The position numbers were made by a program, and so were the translations under genes. A stretch of 64,000 nucleotides of DNA, taken from Halobacteria archaeon HArc-gm2. GTDB taxonomy: Archaea; Halobacteriota; Halobacteria; Halobacteriales; Haloarculaceae. The first letter of the stretch is position 1. Every line of letters begins with the position of its first letter. The DNA is taken from NCBI GenBank assembly GCA_025517465.1, contig JAOPKE010000005.1, positions 310,001 to 374,000 of the forward strand, in the 5' to 3' direction. Below are positions 18,106-51,532 of the stretch, one piece after another. The notes under the pieces were generated by a model, which was not told the DNA's origin, searched no databases, and was given only the letters and a program-made list of their open reading frames with translations.

Positions 18106-20532
18106 TCACGCTCGCGTTTCGACGCCGGACAGGACGATCCGAGCGCCGCCGCCCTCGCTCTCGTGGACGTCGACCGTCCAGCCGTGGCCGTCGGCGATCT
18201 GTTCGACGATCCGCAACCCGAGCCCGGTGCCACCAGGGACGCTTGAACGACCGGCTTCGAACACCCCGTCACGGTCGGGCTCTGGAATTCCCTGGCCGTC
18301 GTCGGCGACGTAGAATCCGTCGTCGGCGTCACCGACCGTCACCGTCACGCCCTCCCCGTCGTGTTCCACGGCGTCCTCTGGAGCGTCAGCGACAGAGGGC
18401 TCGCCGGACGGTTGTCGTCCGGCGGCGTCCTCCCGAGCTTGCGAGGGAGGGCTCGTGGAACCGTGTTCCACGGCGTCCTCCTGAGCGTGCGAAGGAGGGC
18501 TCGTGGAGCTATACTTCACGGTGCAGTCACTCGTCTGCGACTCGTGACGGCTCGCCGAACCGTGTTCGACCGCGTTGTGGAACAGGTTCTCCAGGAGTTG
18601 CTGGAGCTGGCACCGGTCGGCACGGATCGTCAGGTCCGTCTGGACCGAGAGGCTCGCCTCGTCCGTCTCCACGTTCCGCCAGCAGTCCGCTGCCACGTCG
18701 GCGAGCGGGACGAACTCGGGTTCCGTGGCCGCGTCACCCTCGCGTGCGAGCGTCAGAATCTCGTCTATCATCGTCTCCATCCGGTCGTGTGCGCCCACCA
18801 CCGGGTCGACGTGCTCGCTGTCGCACTCCTCCTGGATCATCTCCATGCGACCGCGTGCGACGCTCAACGGGTTCCGGAGGTCGTGGCTGACGATGCTCGC
18901 GAACTCCGAGAGCCGCTCGTTCTGCCGTTCAAGTCGGCGCTCGCGTTCCGTCCGTTCGGAGATGTCGCGTCCCATCCCGACCACGCCGGTCACGTCGCCG
19001 CTGGTGTCCGTGAGTCGCGCGCCGGTGAACTCGTAGGGGACTCGGTCTCCATCCGCCGTCACGAGGTCCGCCTCGATGGTCGCGTGCCCCTCCGACAGCG
19101 CCGTGGCGATGGCCGCCCGGACCCGCTCGGAGTCGTCCTCGGGAAAGAGGTCCGACAGTTCGAGGTCGCCGATGGCGCCGTCTTCGTAGCCGGTCGCCGC
19201 CGCGAGCCGGTCGTTCCACCGGCGGAACATCCCGTCAGTGTCGAGCACGTAGAAGACGTCCGCGAGCGCGTTCAGCGCCTGGTCGACGAACTCGCGTTCC
19301 TCGCGGAGGTCGCGTTCCGACGCGATGCCGTCCAGCGCCGTCGTCGCGTGAACGGCGAGAGTCTGGGCGAGGGGAACGTCCGTCGTCTCGAACGCGTCGG
19401 CGTCGTCCACGCCGACGAGGAGGACGCCGTGGTCGCCGAGCGGGAGGATCATCTCGCTCCGCATCGGCGTGTCCTCGTTCAGACGGTCCTCGGCCGTGGA
19501 GACGTCGTCGTACACCCGCCGTTCGCCGTCTTCGAACACCTGCCACGCGATCCCTTCCCCTCGCGGGAACGCCGGGGGTTCGCCGAGTATCGCCTCGGTC
19601 TCCTCGGTCCAGATGGTCGGGGCCAGACAGTCCTCGTCCTCGTCGTAGCGGTAGACTGCGGCCGCGGGCAGGCCGAGGATGTCCCGCACTGCTTCCGTGG
19701 CGGTCTCGGCCACGTCCGCGAACGACGTCGCCTGCATGAACGAGCGGACGGTGCAGTGAAGCCCCTCGATGGCCCGCTCGCGGGACTTGCGCTCGGACTT
19801 GTCCCAGACGCTGCAGATGAGTTCGCCGTCCTTCGTCTTCGCGAGCGTGTGGTCTTCGACGAAGGTGGTGCCGTCGGCGCGCACGCCGGTCGTCTCGCCG
19901 GACCAGACGCCGGTCTTCTCCAGGTCGGGGATGACGTCCGCCTGAACGAGTTCGATGTCCTCGTCCGGGTACGTGATGGTGAACGACTCCCCGAGCATCT
20001 CCTCGGGCTCGTAGCCGTAGATGTCCGCGTACGCCTGGTTGACGTAGACGTACTCGCCGGATTCGGCGACGATGCTGATCCCCTCCTGGGCCGCTTCGAT
20101 GGCATCCAGGTGGCGACGCTTGGCCTGCTCGGCCCGCGCTCGCTCGACGGCGTTGACCACCCGGTTCGCCAGTATCGCGTACTGGTCCGCCCCGGTCTCC
20201 TTCTGGAGGTAGTCGGTGACGCCAGCCGAGATCGCGTCGCTCGCCACCTCCTCGCTCCCCTTGCCCGTGAACAGAATGAAGGGGAGTTCGGGGTGGTCCT
20301 CACGGACGGCCTCGAGGAACTCGATACCGTTTCGCTGACCCATGTCGTAGTCCGAGACGATGCAGTCGACACCGCCGTCCTCGAGCCGGTCGAGCCCGTC
20401 GCCGGCACTCGTCGCCGTCTCCACGACGAGGCGGTCGTTCTCGCGTTCGATGCAGGTCGCCACCATCTCCGCGAAGTCCCCGTCGTCCTCGACGTGGAGG
20501 ACGCGGATCCGGTCAACTGTCGACTGTTCCAT
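18106..20532 (-). CDS. hybrid sensor: REC-PAS-GAF-PAS-histidine kinase
   Basis: The 808-residue soluble protein begins with a response-regulator receiver (phosphoacceptor D61 in CIVSDYDMG; FILFTGKGSEEVASDAISAG). A PAS domain (DAIEAAQEGISIV), a GAF-like domain, a second PAS (ADVFYVLDTDGMFRRWNDRL) and a HisKA/HATPase module follow; the phosphorylated His lies in FASIVSHDLRNPLS. The ATPase has the N box (LFHNAVEHG) and G boxes (DDGQGIP, GTGLGLRIVEQ). An insertion of about 70 residues after the N box repeats the AVEHG(S/T) segment twice. No membrane helices are present, so it senses a cytoplasmic signal. ATG 20532 starts the receiver domain directly. Confidence 0.9.
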   Translation of the reverse strand: MEQSTVDRIRVLHVEDDGDFAEMVATCIERENDRLVVETATSAGDGLDRLEDGGVDCIVSDYDMGQRNGIEFLEAVREDHPELPFILFTGKGSEEVASDAISAGVTDYLQKETGADQYAILANRVVNAVERARAEQAKRRHLDAIEAAQEGISIVAESGEYVYVNQAYADIYGYEPEEMLGESFTITYPDEDIELVQADVIPDLEKTGVWSGETTGVRADGTTFVEDHTLAKTKDGELICSVWDKSERKSRERAIEGLHCTVRSFMQATSFADVAETATEAVRDILGLPAAAVYRYDEDEDCLAPTIWTEETEAILGEPPAFPRGEGIAWQVFEDGERRVYDDVSTAEDRLNEDTPMRSEMILPLGDHGVLLVGVDDADAFETTDVPLAQTLAVHATTALDGIASERDLREEREFVDQALNALADVFYVLDTDGMFRRWNDRLAAATGYEDGAIGDLELSDLFPEDDSERVRAAIATALSEGHATIEADLVTADGDRVPYEFTGARLTDTSGDVTGVVGMGRDISERTERERRLERQNERLSEFASIVSHDLRNPLSVARGRMEMIQEECDSEHVDPVVGAHDRMETMIDEILTLAREGDAATEPEFVPLADVAADCWRNVETDEASLSVQTDLTIRADRCQLQQLLENLFHNAVEHGSASRHESQTSDCTVKYSSTSPPSHAQEDAVEHGSTSPPSQAREDAAGRQPSGEPSVADAPEDAVEHDGEGVTVTVGDADDGFYVADDGQGIPEPDRDGVFEAGRSSVPGGTGLGLRIVEQIADGHGWTVDVHESEGGGARIVLSGVETRA

Positions 20533-45526: not shown

Positions 45527-45570
45527 CGTGGACGGGTGCGGGACGTGGACGGGTGCGGGACGTGGACGAG
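45527..45570. repeat. 17-base tandem repeat, 2.6 copies
   Basis: CGTGGACGGGTGCGGGA is repeated exactly at 45527-45543 and 45544-45560, with a partial third copy (CGTGGACGAG). It lies in the 227-base gap downstream of the ferredoxin gene's stop codon. Confidence 0.75.
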
Positions 45571-45603: not shown

Positions 45604-45849
45604 TCAGGGGACGATCTGTTCGCCGTCGTCGTCGTAGACGGTGATGGCCTCCACCGGACAGGCCCGCGCCGCGAACTTCGCGTCGAGTTCCGACCCCTCG
45701 GGCACCTCGCGGACGAACAGGCCGTCCTCTGTCTCCTCGCTATCCGTGAGGACTGCTTTGCCGGCGTCCTCGTCCCGCTCGAAGGCGTCCCACTCGGCGA
45801 CGCACTGGAACATCCCGATGCAGGTGTCGCGGTCGTACTCGATTCGCAT
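45604..45849 (-). CDS. [3Fe-4S]-type ferredoxin
   Basis: The 81-residue protein MRIEYDRDTCIGMFQCVAEW... has cysteines at 10, 16 and 64 (RACPVEAI). The middle cysteine of the usual C-x2-C-x2-C group is Met13, so only three ligands remain, which is the pattern of single-cluster [3Fe-4S] ferredoxins; such proteins commonly serve cytochrome P450s or dehydrogenases. It is acidic and has the length of the single-cluster class. The neighbouring Mqo-like gene (227 bases downstream on the same strand) could be a partner, but this is only proximity. Confidence 0.88.
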   Translation of the reverse strand: MRIEYDRDTCIGMFQCVAEWDAFERDEDAGKAVLTDSEETEDGLFVREVPEGSELDAKFAARACPVEAITVYDDDGEQIVP

Positions 45850-45896
45850 TAGTGGGGGATTGGTCCGGACGGCCCTTAGCGTTCGGGATGTGCGCC

Positions 45897-46126
45897 GATA
45901 GACTCACTCCGTTCGTCTATCGAGCCCGGCCTCACGCAGTTCGGCCGGACGCCTGGAGATTCACTGCGTTCATCTCCCGAGCCCTGCGCTCGCTACGCTC
46001 GCGCAGGACGCCTTCGGATTCGCGCTGCTCATCCGATGAGCCCACGCTCACTTCGTTCGCGTGGACGCCGGCAGACTCGCTGCGCTCGACTCCCGAGCCC
46101 GGCCTCACACAGTTCGGCCGGATGCC
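45897..46126. repeat. regular array of eight hairpins with 11-base loops
   Basis: Eight consecutive hairpins alternate with linkers GAGCC and GACGCC (last one GATGCC). Stems and loops in order: GATAGAC-TCACTCCGTTC-GTCTATC; CGGCC-TCACGCAGTTC-GGCCG; GGAGAT-TCACTGCGTTC-ATCTCC; CTGCGC-TCGCTACGCTC-GCGCAG; TCGGAT-TCGCGCTGCTC-ATCCGA; CCACGC-TCACTTCGTTC-GCGTGG; GCAGAC-TCGCTGCGCTC-GACTCC (degenerate); CGGCC-TCACACAGTTC-GGCCG. Every loop is exactly 11 bases. The stem sequences differ but seven of eight are perfectly paired. The array lies between the REC-PAS-GAF gene (3' end at 46139) and the ferredoxin gene (start 45849). Confidence 0.9.
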
Positions 46127-46138
46127 GACCCGGCAGTG

Positions 46139-47389
46139 CTACCCGCCGTTCTCGAGACGGTCGAAGGTGGCGGCGACGGAGCGGGCGAGGATGCCCACCA
46201 GGTCGCGCTCGGCGTCGTCGAACGTCCGCGGAGTGGTCGAACCGATGGCGAGCAGGCCGTGCTCACCGAGCGGATACATGAAGAGAGTCTCGAAGGCGTC
46301 GGTGACGGCGTCCTCGCGGTCGCCGTACTCCTCGACGACGCGGGGGTCGCCCGCCTCGAAGACGGTCATCTCGACGGCCCAGTCGGGGAGCGGCGAGACG
46401 CCGGCTTCGAGGCCCGCTTTCTCGGCGATGCGAGTGGCGTTCTCGGTGGCGGCGAGCGGGGCGAGGCTGTCGCCGCCGGAGTCGTACTCCCAGACGACGG
46501 CGACGGACTCGTCGAAGACGTTCTCGACGACGTCGAGCGCGACGTCGGCGACGGTCCCGCGGTCCTCGGCGACGAGCAGACGTCTGGTCGCGTCGTGGAG
46601 CGCTTCCAGGCGCTGTTCCCGGCAGTAGCGGTCGGTGACGTCACGGAGGACGACCTGCGAGGCGCGGACGCCCTCGAAGACGACCGGAGCGGCCTGGCTC
46701 TCTACCCTGCGAATCTCGCCGTCGAACCGGCGGAGGCGCCAGGAGAGCCAGCCGGCGGGCTCCCGGTCCCGGAGCACGCGGTCGACCCGGTCGGCCAGGC
46801 GCTCGCGGTCGTCGGGGTGGACCAGCGTGACCGGGTCGCAGCCGTACACCTCGGCGGCGTCGGCGGCGCCGGCGAGTTCGACGAGTCGCTCGTTCGCGTA
46901 CCGGATCGCCTCGCCGTCGTGGACGAGGATGGCGTTCGGGGAGCTCTCGACGAGCGTCTGGTAGCGGGACTTCGTCTCGGCGGCGGCCTCGACCGAGCGC
47001 CGGTGGGCGACGGCGTTGCGGATCCGGTTGGCGAGGACGGCGTACTGGTCGGTCCCGGTCCCTTTCTGGAGGTAGTCGGTGACGCCGGCCGAGATGGCCT
47101 CGCTGGCGATCTCCTCGCTGCCGCGGCCGGTGAAGAGGACGAACGGCAGCGTCGCGTCGAACTCGCGGACCTCACGGAGCAGGTCCAGGCCGTCTCGCTC
47201 GGGCATCTCGTAGTCGCTGACGATGCAGTCGACGTCGCCGTCGAGGACGTCCAGCGCCTCGGCGGCGCTGTGGGCGACCTGCGTCTCGAACGCGCCGTCC
47301 CGACGTTCGAGATGCGTGCTGGTGACGGCCCCGAGGTCGGGGTCGTCGTCGACGAGGAGAACCCTGATCGGCTCCTCGACAGTAGCCAT
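46139..47389 (-). CDS. REC-PAS-GAF signalling protein without kinase domain
   Basis: The 416-residue protein starts with a receiver (VLLVDDDPDLGAVTSTHL; phosphoacceptor Asp in CIVSDYEMPERDG; FVLFTGRGSEEIASEAISAG), nearly identical in its core to that of the sensor kinase at 18106. A PAS domain (LVESSPNAILVHDGEAIRYA) and a GAF domain (ATRRLLVAEDRGTVADVALD ... MYPLGEHGLLAIGSTTPRTF) follow, and the protein ends there. No HisKA/ATPase and no bacterio-opsin-activator HTH are present. It would receive phosphate and ligand signals, but its output must be through protein contacts. ATG 47389 begins the receiver domain. Confidence 0.87.
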   Translation of the reverse strand: MATVEEPIRVLLVDDDPDLGAVTSTHLERRDGAFETQVAHSAAEALDVLDGDVDCIVSDYEMPERDGLDLLREVREFDATLPFVLFTGRGSEEIASEAISAGVTDYLQKGTGTDQYAVLANRIRNAVAHRRSVEAAAETKSRYQTLVESSPNAILVHDGEAIRYANERLVELAGAADAAEVYGCDPVTLVHPDDRERLADRVDRVLRDREPAGWLSWRLRRFDGEIRRVESQAAPVVFEGVRASQVVLRDVTDRYCREQRLEALHDATRRLLVAEDRGTVADVALDVVENVFDESVAVVWEYDSGGDSLAPLAATENATRIAEKAGLEAGVSPLPDWAVEMTVFEAGDPRVVEEYGDREDAVTDAFETLFMYPLGEHGLLAIGSTTPRTFDDAERDLVGILARSVAATFDRLENGG

Positions 47390-51082: not shown

Positions 51083-51434
51083 CAACAAGAAAGCCCCCGG
51101 GCGTTCACGGGCTGCGAACCCGCCTGCGCTCCTCGTTGACGCTGTCGTTCGAAAGGCGCGCAGCTCCTTTCGTGATGACGAGAGAGCTTCGCTCTCTCGA
51201 ACCACGGTGCTTGACGGTTCTCGCTCCGTGAACGCCCGGCCCCTTTCAGTTCCGCCCCGTGGATCATCCAGTGGGTGGGACTGAAAGGGGCGCCCAGGTG
51301 GCCGAACCCCGGCGAAGGTGAGCCGAGTGCAACGAGGCGAACGTCGGAAGACGAGCGAAGCGAGTCTTCCGGAATAAGCACCGCAGGGAGCGCAGCGAGC
51401 CGCGGGAGGTCAGCCGGACGGGGCTTTCTTGTTG
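51083..51434. repeat. long palindromic element, copy V (subfamily B)
   Basis: Perfect 15-base ends CAACAAGAAAGCCCC (51083-51097) and GGGGCTTTCTTGTTG (51420-51434) define the element. Inner arms GCCCCTTTCAG (51239-51249) and CTGAAAGGGGC (51281-51291) enclose about 31 bases. The left half has a side stem GGGCGTTCACGG (51099-51110) with CCGTGAACGCCC (51226-51237), whose loop contains the hairpins GAAAGG/CCTTTC and CGAGAGAGC-TTC-GCTCTCTCG. The right half has CGGAAGAC-GAGCGAAGCGA-GTCTTCCG (51345-51371), an 11-base-loop hairpin. It lies between divergent coaD and the OYE gene. Confidence 0.88.
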
Positions 51435-51532
51435 GTAGTGGCGTCACCGAGTTCAGTTGCGGCGATCGAACCAGCTTGAAATTCCCGTAGCCCCACCAGC
51501 CTTACCACCGGACCGGGCCGTATCAGAAGTCG

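Follow-up and report, generated by a model that had tools for sequence, protein, structure and literature searches.

The window, the whole 64,000-nt stretch of DNA analyzed here, carries an array of about 230 bp at 45897..46126 on the minus strand, made up of four head-to-tail double-hairpin units. Both flanking genes are coded on the array's own minus strand, called the GA strand below. The gene for a response-regulator receiver/PAS-type sensor protein (46139..47389) has its stop codon 12 nt before the array, and the gene for an 81-aa ferredoxin-like protein (45604..45849) starts 47 nt past it; gene calls near arrays were made with a simple codon model. Further downstream of the ferredoxin gene, at 45527-45568, there is an exact 17-bp tandem repeat (CGTGGACGGGTGCGGGA, 2.5 copies) that is variable in the related genome G006.

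An earlier note had described the locus as four repeats of a two-hairpin module of about 57 bases. Tandem Repeats Finder (period 57, 3.9 copies) and covariance model R1 (units of 57, 59, 57, and 57 nt) bear this out, with the correction that Unit 3 has 59 nt. All four units are on the minus strand. Unit 1 (46070..46126; 73.5 bits with model R1) consists of hairpin A, CCGGCC/GGCCGG with head GAACTGTGTGA, and a degenerate hairpin B, GGGAGTC/GTCTGCC with head GAGCGCAGCGA. Unit 2 (46013..46069; 70.2 bits) has hairpin A CCACGC/GCGTGG with head GAACGAAGTGA and hairpin B ATCGGAT/ATCCGAA with head GAGCAGCGCGA. Unit 3 (45954..46012; 62.6 bits) has hairpin A CCTGCGC/GCGCAGG with head GAGCGTAGCGA and hairpin B GGAGAT/ATCTCC with head GAACGCAGTGA. 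Unit 4 (45897..45953; 82.1 bits) gives the top-scoring match in the genome, with hairpin A CCGGCC/GGCCGG and head GAACTGCGTGA, and hairpin B GATAGAC/GTCTATC and head GAACGGAGTGA; an identical copy of it is found at G000:C18:129290 in the same genome. Directly 3' of the array is the pre-existing GG(C) that served as insertion target (45894..45896, minus strand), which is present as GGC in the empty site of G006.

With two hairpins in each of four units, there are eight hairpins in 45897-46126. Seven of the eight stems are perfect and at least 6 bp long, as had been noted before; in the remaining hairpin (about 46071-46095), 5 of 7 positions are paired. The linkers between hairpins alternate between GAGCC and GACGCC, again as read earlier. 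The array is not a chance product: counting head hairpins whose stem has 5 bp or more, we found 10 in the window, where first-order Markov sequences gave 0.25 (maximum 2), and 84 in 1.2 Mb of G006 against 2-5 expected by chance, while control heads with permuted loop letters gave 0-5 hairpins.

Structure of the hairpin head and the folded strand

On the minus strand, a unit reads GGCGT, hairpin A (6-bp stem), GCTC, hairpin B (7-bp stem), with a length of 57 nt and variants of 48-59. All eight 11-nt spans between the stem arms match TCNCNNNGNTC on the plus strand, which is GANCNNNGNGA on the minus strand. The earlier note took these spans for 11-base open loops and suggested a loop-binding protein. 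The open loop proved to be wrong, and with it the structure on which that protein was postulated, since the span is paired internally. The minus-strand head has the form GA-NC-NNN-GN'-GA: tandem G·A mismatches, two base pairs, and a 3-nt tip that is often GNA (64 of the 84 head hairpins of G006). N and N' are complementary in 8/8 heads of the window array and in 77/84 hairpins of G006, and the pair differs among units, being A-T or G-C. In DNA, both C(GNA)G tips and GA/AG mismatches show unusual stability, as in the d(GCGAAGC) mini-hairpins. The head core NC-GNA-GN' of many units has the same form as the extraordinarily stable d(GCGNAGC) mini-hairpins; unlike the bare mini-hairpin, the core here lies inside a genomic element, flanked by tandem G·A mismatches and carried on a variable stem.

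Across 34 distinct aligned units, 95.3% of cells are paired, and the covariation score was 0.528 compared with 0.188 for shuffled and 0.04-0.06 for slid partners. Non-Watson-Crick pairs on the GA strand are mostly G·U rather than A·C (49:13), and RNA folding was better for the GA strand than for its complement in 95/95 units, whereas as DNA, under standard parameters, the two strands gave nearly equal folding energies in four folds. We concluded from the G·U preference and the better RNA fold that the GA strand is the strand whose folding is kept; the G·U bias fits folding as RNA as well as folding as single-stranded DNA.

These two asymmetries, together with the position of the window array 12 nt past a stop codon in co-orientation with both neighbours, are what one would expect of an RNA element that benefits the host, whose hairpins serve in the transcript as a 3'-UTR stabilizer, a processing site (as the earlier note had offered), or a dock for a protein that binds the GA/GNA head. 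Against it, the orientation of 101 arrays to their flanking genes is balanced (opposite/opposite 24, same/opposite 23, opposite/same 21, same/same 19), copies are found inside ORFs, the window is without an Rfam match, and the array is missing both from a 94%-identical neighbourhood in G006 and from G005 (see below). An RNA stabilizer was dropped after the balanced orientation and the empty sites had been seen, RNA processing is likewise unsupported given that orientation and the absence of the array from the closest sampled relative, and a conserved local function of the window array is not supported. We regard a host-beneficial RNA element as quite improbable.

Dispersal, empty sites, and insertion into protein genes

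In a blastn search, the array matched 44 places in its own 4.25-Mb genome (G000), and identical units reappear in other arrays of this genome, often in other orders. Model R1 found 124 units in G000 and 111 in G004, with matches in 50 of 59 genomes (relatives and the own genome), at most 150 matches being scored for any one genome. In a phylum-wide draw of 197 genomes, 29 of the 33 from the same order were matched and 0 of the 164 outside it; the latter differ in base composition, and so test specificity without being a matched control. The earlier proposal to search haloarchaeal genomes against a shuffled expectation is thus answered by a recurrence far above chance. Copies are present between genes, within an 80-bp MITE, in the spacers of tRNAs, and also inside protein genes. 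Units and single head hairpins occur between the tRNA genes of a dense tRNA cluster (L096 3001-4161, L108, L136), some of them directly after a tRNA 3' end. No match to the array was obtained in plasmid and phage collections (blastn) or, by pattern search, in viral contigs, and there is therefore no sign of plasmid or virus carriage. Rfam 15 gave no match above the gathering score in the window and none at E up to 5 around the array; the Rfam matches obtained were tRNAs only. Literature searches with the exact head sequences returned nothing relevant, and a description of the 57-nt family was not found in the open-access literature searched.

Unit counts come from genome-wide searches, and empty sites from a comparison with partial G006 sequence (1.2 Mb), in which a handful of sites were aligned. 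In G006, the gene upstream of the window array has an ortholog of 94% identity, with the same ferredoxin gene after it and no array. The window minus strand reads ...GGTC|[GGCATCC ... GTCTATC]GGCGCACATCCCGAACGC at the occupied site, and G006 reads ...GGTC|GGCCCGCATCCCGAACGC, an exact empty site from which about 230 bp are missing. The site beside the same ferredoxin neighbour in G005 is likewise empty. The window array has thus been inserted exactly and is missing at the orthologous site. Single 57-bp insertions were also found relative to G006 at L135, L137, and L109, and a 51-bp in-frame insertion at L113. In a histidine kinase, G000 carries 57 bp at ERH|GGDIW and G006 a different 57 bp at RR|GDWW. 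At the window site alone, precise loss in G006 and G005 instead of insertion is conceivable; as a general explanation it is unlikely because the kinase insertions are reciprocal. The units have no terminal inverted repeats (TIRs), and insertion is precise, directly 5' of a GG that is already there at empty sites.

Since the window array is an exact insertion and identical units exist elsewhere, the units are individual copies of a mobile element, and this is why their stems differ. The stems that the earlier note called unrelated belong to different family members placed side by side. Its picture of conserved heads on free but complementary stems stands; a stepwise covariation of stems at a fixed locus does not, the copies being separate mobile ones.

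Some units lie within reading frames. HyuB of G004 compared with its G006 homolog shows an exact gap of 19 residues, and the insertion (440-458) lies inside PF02538 (93-628). The sulfite/nitrite reductase-like protein at L113 has a 17-residue gap at 85% identity, and the kinase homologs show two reciprocal 19-residue gaps. Two other Pfam domains are stretched by insertions, AMP-binding_C to 95 residues for a 76-position profile and HATPase_c to 129 residues for 109 positions. One forward frame of the unit contains a stop in only 5 of 103 units compared with the roughly 44 that shuffling predicts; in one reverse frame, 3 of 103 units have a stop. Among merged matches inside spanning ORFs, 12 of 18 are same-strand and in frame 0, and yield peptides such as GVHANDVSVGSKDERSESF. 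Off-frame insertions also exist and break genes: the 57 bp at L135 (3001-3057) put a stop into a gene (PQWQGGNWTGMSYTN...) that is intact in G006, and the 57 bp at L137 truncate the C-terminus. Given these two broken genes, we attribute in-frame placement to selection, not mechanism; the bias probably reflects survival.

Three related units of 48-54 nt (31-44 bits with model R1) are located at 18370..18519 on the plus strand, inside a histidine-kinase-like ORF (18106-20532, minus), where they are translated as VEHGSTSPPS-type repeats. Read on the opposite strand, these units and L269 11081-11128 give VEHGSTSPPSQAREDA-type repeats beside an NAVEHG motif. A kinase in G006 holds a similar repeat. 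Kinase-borne units are possibly the origin of a repeat that is widespread in haloarchaeal kinases.

Array growth and candidate carriers

GG follows directly 3' in 47 of 53 arrays whose last hairpin is intact, and GG also begins every unit, so that the target would be re-formed at the left end of every new insertion. A self-restored target predicts unlike neighbours in perfect register, which is what we observed: adjacent units are 66.6% identical compared with 72.2% after permutation, and only 0.1% of permutations were as low. Because neighbours are less alike than random pairs, we concluded that arrays grow by serial insertion, not duplication. Tandem duplication or slippage predicts the opposite neighbour pattern and was rejected, as was a CRISPR or simple tandem repeat, in which the repeats should be near-identical or neighbours most alike.

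It could still be argued that arrays arise purely from enzyme-free host recombination, through slippage, gene conversion, and template switching at GG/GGC identities and hairpins. Multi-unit blocks of two or three units are common to different arrays (L002/L009; L003/L004/L007), L139 contains an internal repetition, inner units of the shared array L117 have been swapped between G000 and G006, and our searches gave no mobilizing enzyme. The shared blocks and exchanged inner units do indicate that recombination or segmental copying also contributes. As the sole source, host recombination is unlikely: the low similarity of neighbours runs opposite to slippage, and single 57-bp units sit at unrelated sites where the flanking similarity is limited to GG.

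At least 10 arrays lie within an 80-bp MITE (TIR TAGTGGTGGTTGTAA; 3-bp TGA/TCA direct repeats in most copies), which units enter before the GGCG of its centre. In G000 the MITE measures 80 bp (26 copies), 137 (80+57), 308 (80+4x57), and 365 (80+5x57), that is, 80 + 57n. Six array-bearing copies begin exactly at a TGA stop codon, which is the reason why several arrays are found exactly 24 nt past a stop. This MITE (L167-L206 and L093, L095, L123, L133, L134, L138, L141; about 55 copies, target CTSAG) has a TGA preference that puts it on stop codons, and no full-length partner transposon was seen for it among the listed TIR pairs. The nested sizes would suit a unit that is no more than cargo of the MITE (with its 3-bp TSA duplication) and is moved by it. 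However, among 77 genomes the MITE is numerous in G000 and G006 alone, the 111 units of G004 are without this TIR, and the window array and the ORF insertions, without TIRs themselves, have exact empty sites of n x 57. The MITE is contradicted as the sole carrier by the window array and the G004 units, and the cargo reading is very improbable; the MITE is one landing place of the unit, not its source.

A single related two-hairpin unit at 51317..51370 (plus strand; 43.1 bits with model R1) lies within a longer repeated non-coding element (GGGACTGAAAGGGG ... GGGGCTTTC). The element in this region (51250-51450) is 150-250 nt long (GGACTGAAAGGGCGAGG ... AAGCACCG ... GAGGGCTTTCT) and has the same head hairpins and many copies, among them L085, L088, L100-L102, L110, L116, L125, L126, L128, and L140. 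It matches no Rfam family and may represent a structured RNA or a further mobile element.

The 57-nt unit might instead be a PATE, i.e., a core-deleted IS605-type or RAYT/REP-like element mobilized by a Y1 (HUH) transposase via single-stranded DNA. Haloquadratum walsbyi carries transposase-free MITEs, PATEs, and SMRs (PMC3119063). In PATEs the palindromes are near-terminal, and the minimal, terminal-only form measures 52 bp (PMC3119063); the unit resembles them in having two near-terminal palindromes, no TIR, a similar size too short for a transposase, one favoured strand, and a short fixed target. In G003, a Y1_Tnp gene has two identical units roughly 1 kb away, separated from each other by about 200 nt (L061, G003:C2:539812-542868), the only such neighbourhood seen. 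On the other hand, the head hairpin was found at the ends of none of 30 TnpB loci, which carry other hairpins, model R1 detected no unit at the 12 other Y1 loci, and unit copy number does not track Y1 transposases, with unit-rich genomes lacking any Y1 match (35 units in G058, 25 in G038, and 23 in G008). An IS605/PATE/RAYT origin was rejected for want of both end similarity and a copy-number link, and we consider mobilization by Y1 improbable.

Taken together, the window feature is very probably an array built from copies of a haloarchaeal palindromic element that is mobile and non-autonomous. In the mechanism that we propose, the form folded and recognized would be the GA...GA strand, as single-stranded DNA or RNA. 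A trans-acting, structure-reading enzyme would bind the GA/GNA head, much as hairpins are read in IS605-type, REP, and attC systems, and the stem would need only to pair, leaving it free to drift among family members while the head is held constant. Insertion of a unit beginning with GG would recreate the target and thereby allow serial insertion of different family members. A host function would not be required, and in-frame copies may be tolerated peptide insertions. More tentatively, the unit may represent an undescribed class of single-strand hairpin elements, whose enzyme would read the GA/GNA head independently of the stem and would cut and insert 5' of GG, with stem-divergent arrays and in-frame gene entry across haloarchaea.

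Comparison with known palindromic elements

By analogy, the 57-nt unit works most like the Rickettsia palindromic elements (RPEs), which insert in frame (PMC3733652) and are translated (Ogata 2000, 2002 as reviewed in PMC10969869). The likeness extends to small dispersed palindromes that occur in frame in unrelated protein genes as well as in intergenic DNA and have no known enzyme (PMC10969869). The unit, too, is a multi-copy palindrome of coding and non-coding DNA (intergenic, MITE, and ORF copies among those in G000), and its in-frame insertions into unrelated genes and Pfam domains, seen as 19- and 17-residue gaps, are absent from homologs. RPE-4 and RPE-6 are members of the CGTC-tagged repeats (PMC3733652), and CGTC also precedes hairpin A of the 57-nt unit. 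The likeness drawn here is one of behaviour. The host is an unrelated organism, an archaeon, and the unit has 57 nt compared with about 100-150 for RPEs. Its pair of hairpins, in which heads are conserved and stems free, its head-to-tail serial arrays, and the GG target set the unit further apart.

The GTAG/CGTC-tagged REPs and REPINs share with the unit short palindromes, a conserved non-paired tag, dimers, and many copies (PMC3733652, PMC3116915). REP stems are conserved, their loops are short and variable, and their dimers are mostly inverted (HH) (PMC3733652, PMC3116915), whereas the 57-nt unit has free stems, conserved heads, and two hairpins in direct orientation; the contrast with classical REPs drawn in the earlier note was correct. 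CGTC-tagged REPs, families reported from bacteria only, have a CGTC tag, a conserved 8-9 bp stem, a 4-5 nt loop, and a CCA tail (PMC3733652). The unit does not belong with them, having CGTC before hairpin A only, free stems of 6-7 bp, and the 11-nt head described above. Nor is it a REPIN/RAYT system of two inverted REPs and a Y1 enzyme, given its direct hairpins and unit numbers independent of Y1 genes.

PATEs and SMRs are also haloarchaeal and transposase-free, make no long target duplication, and often lie inside other mobile elements (PMC3119063). PATE palindromes by definition resemble IS605-type ends (PMC3119063), a link that the unit does not show at TnpB ends or, apart from the nearby L061 units, at Y1 loci; SMRs have terminal inverted repeats (PMC3119063) and the unit has none. 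The 80-bp element of G000 that hosts some arrays is a MITE, and the unit differs from it in lacking a TIR, in duplicating at most GG, and in being present in genomes without that MITE.

In-frame palindromic elements have been described as a Rickettsia peculiarity. The haloarchaeal unit would be a smaller archaeal counterpart, one that occurs in most haloarchaeal genomes sampled, and its clear anatomy of conserved head, free stem, and GG target makes the mechanism open to test. It would explain odd insertions of 16-19 residues in haloarchaeal proteins, including the VEHGSTSPPS-type kinase repeats, which annotation takes for ordinary sequence. Where a target regenerates itself, serial insertion would be a simple route to arrays of unlike repeats that resemble a designed structure.
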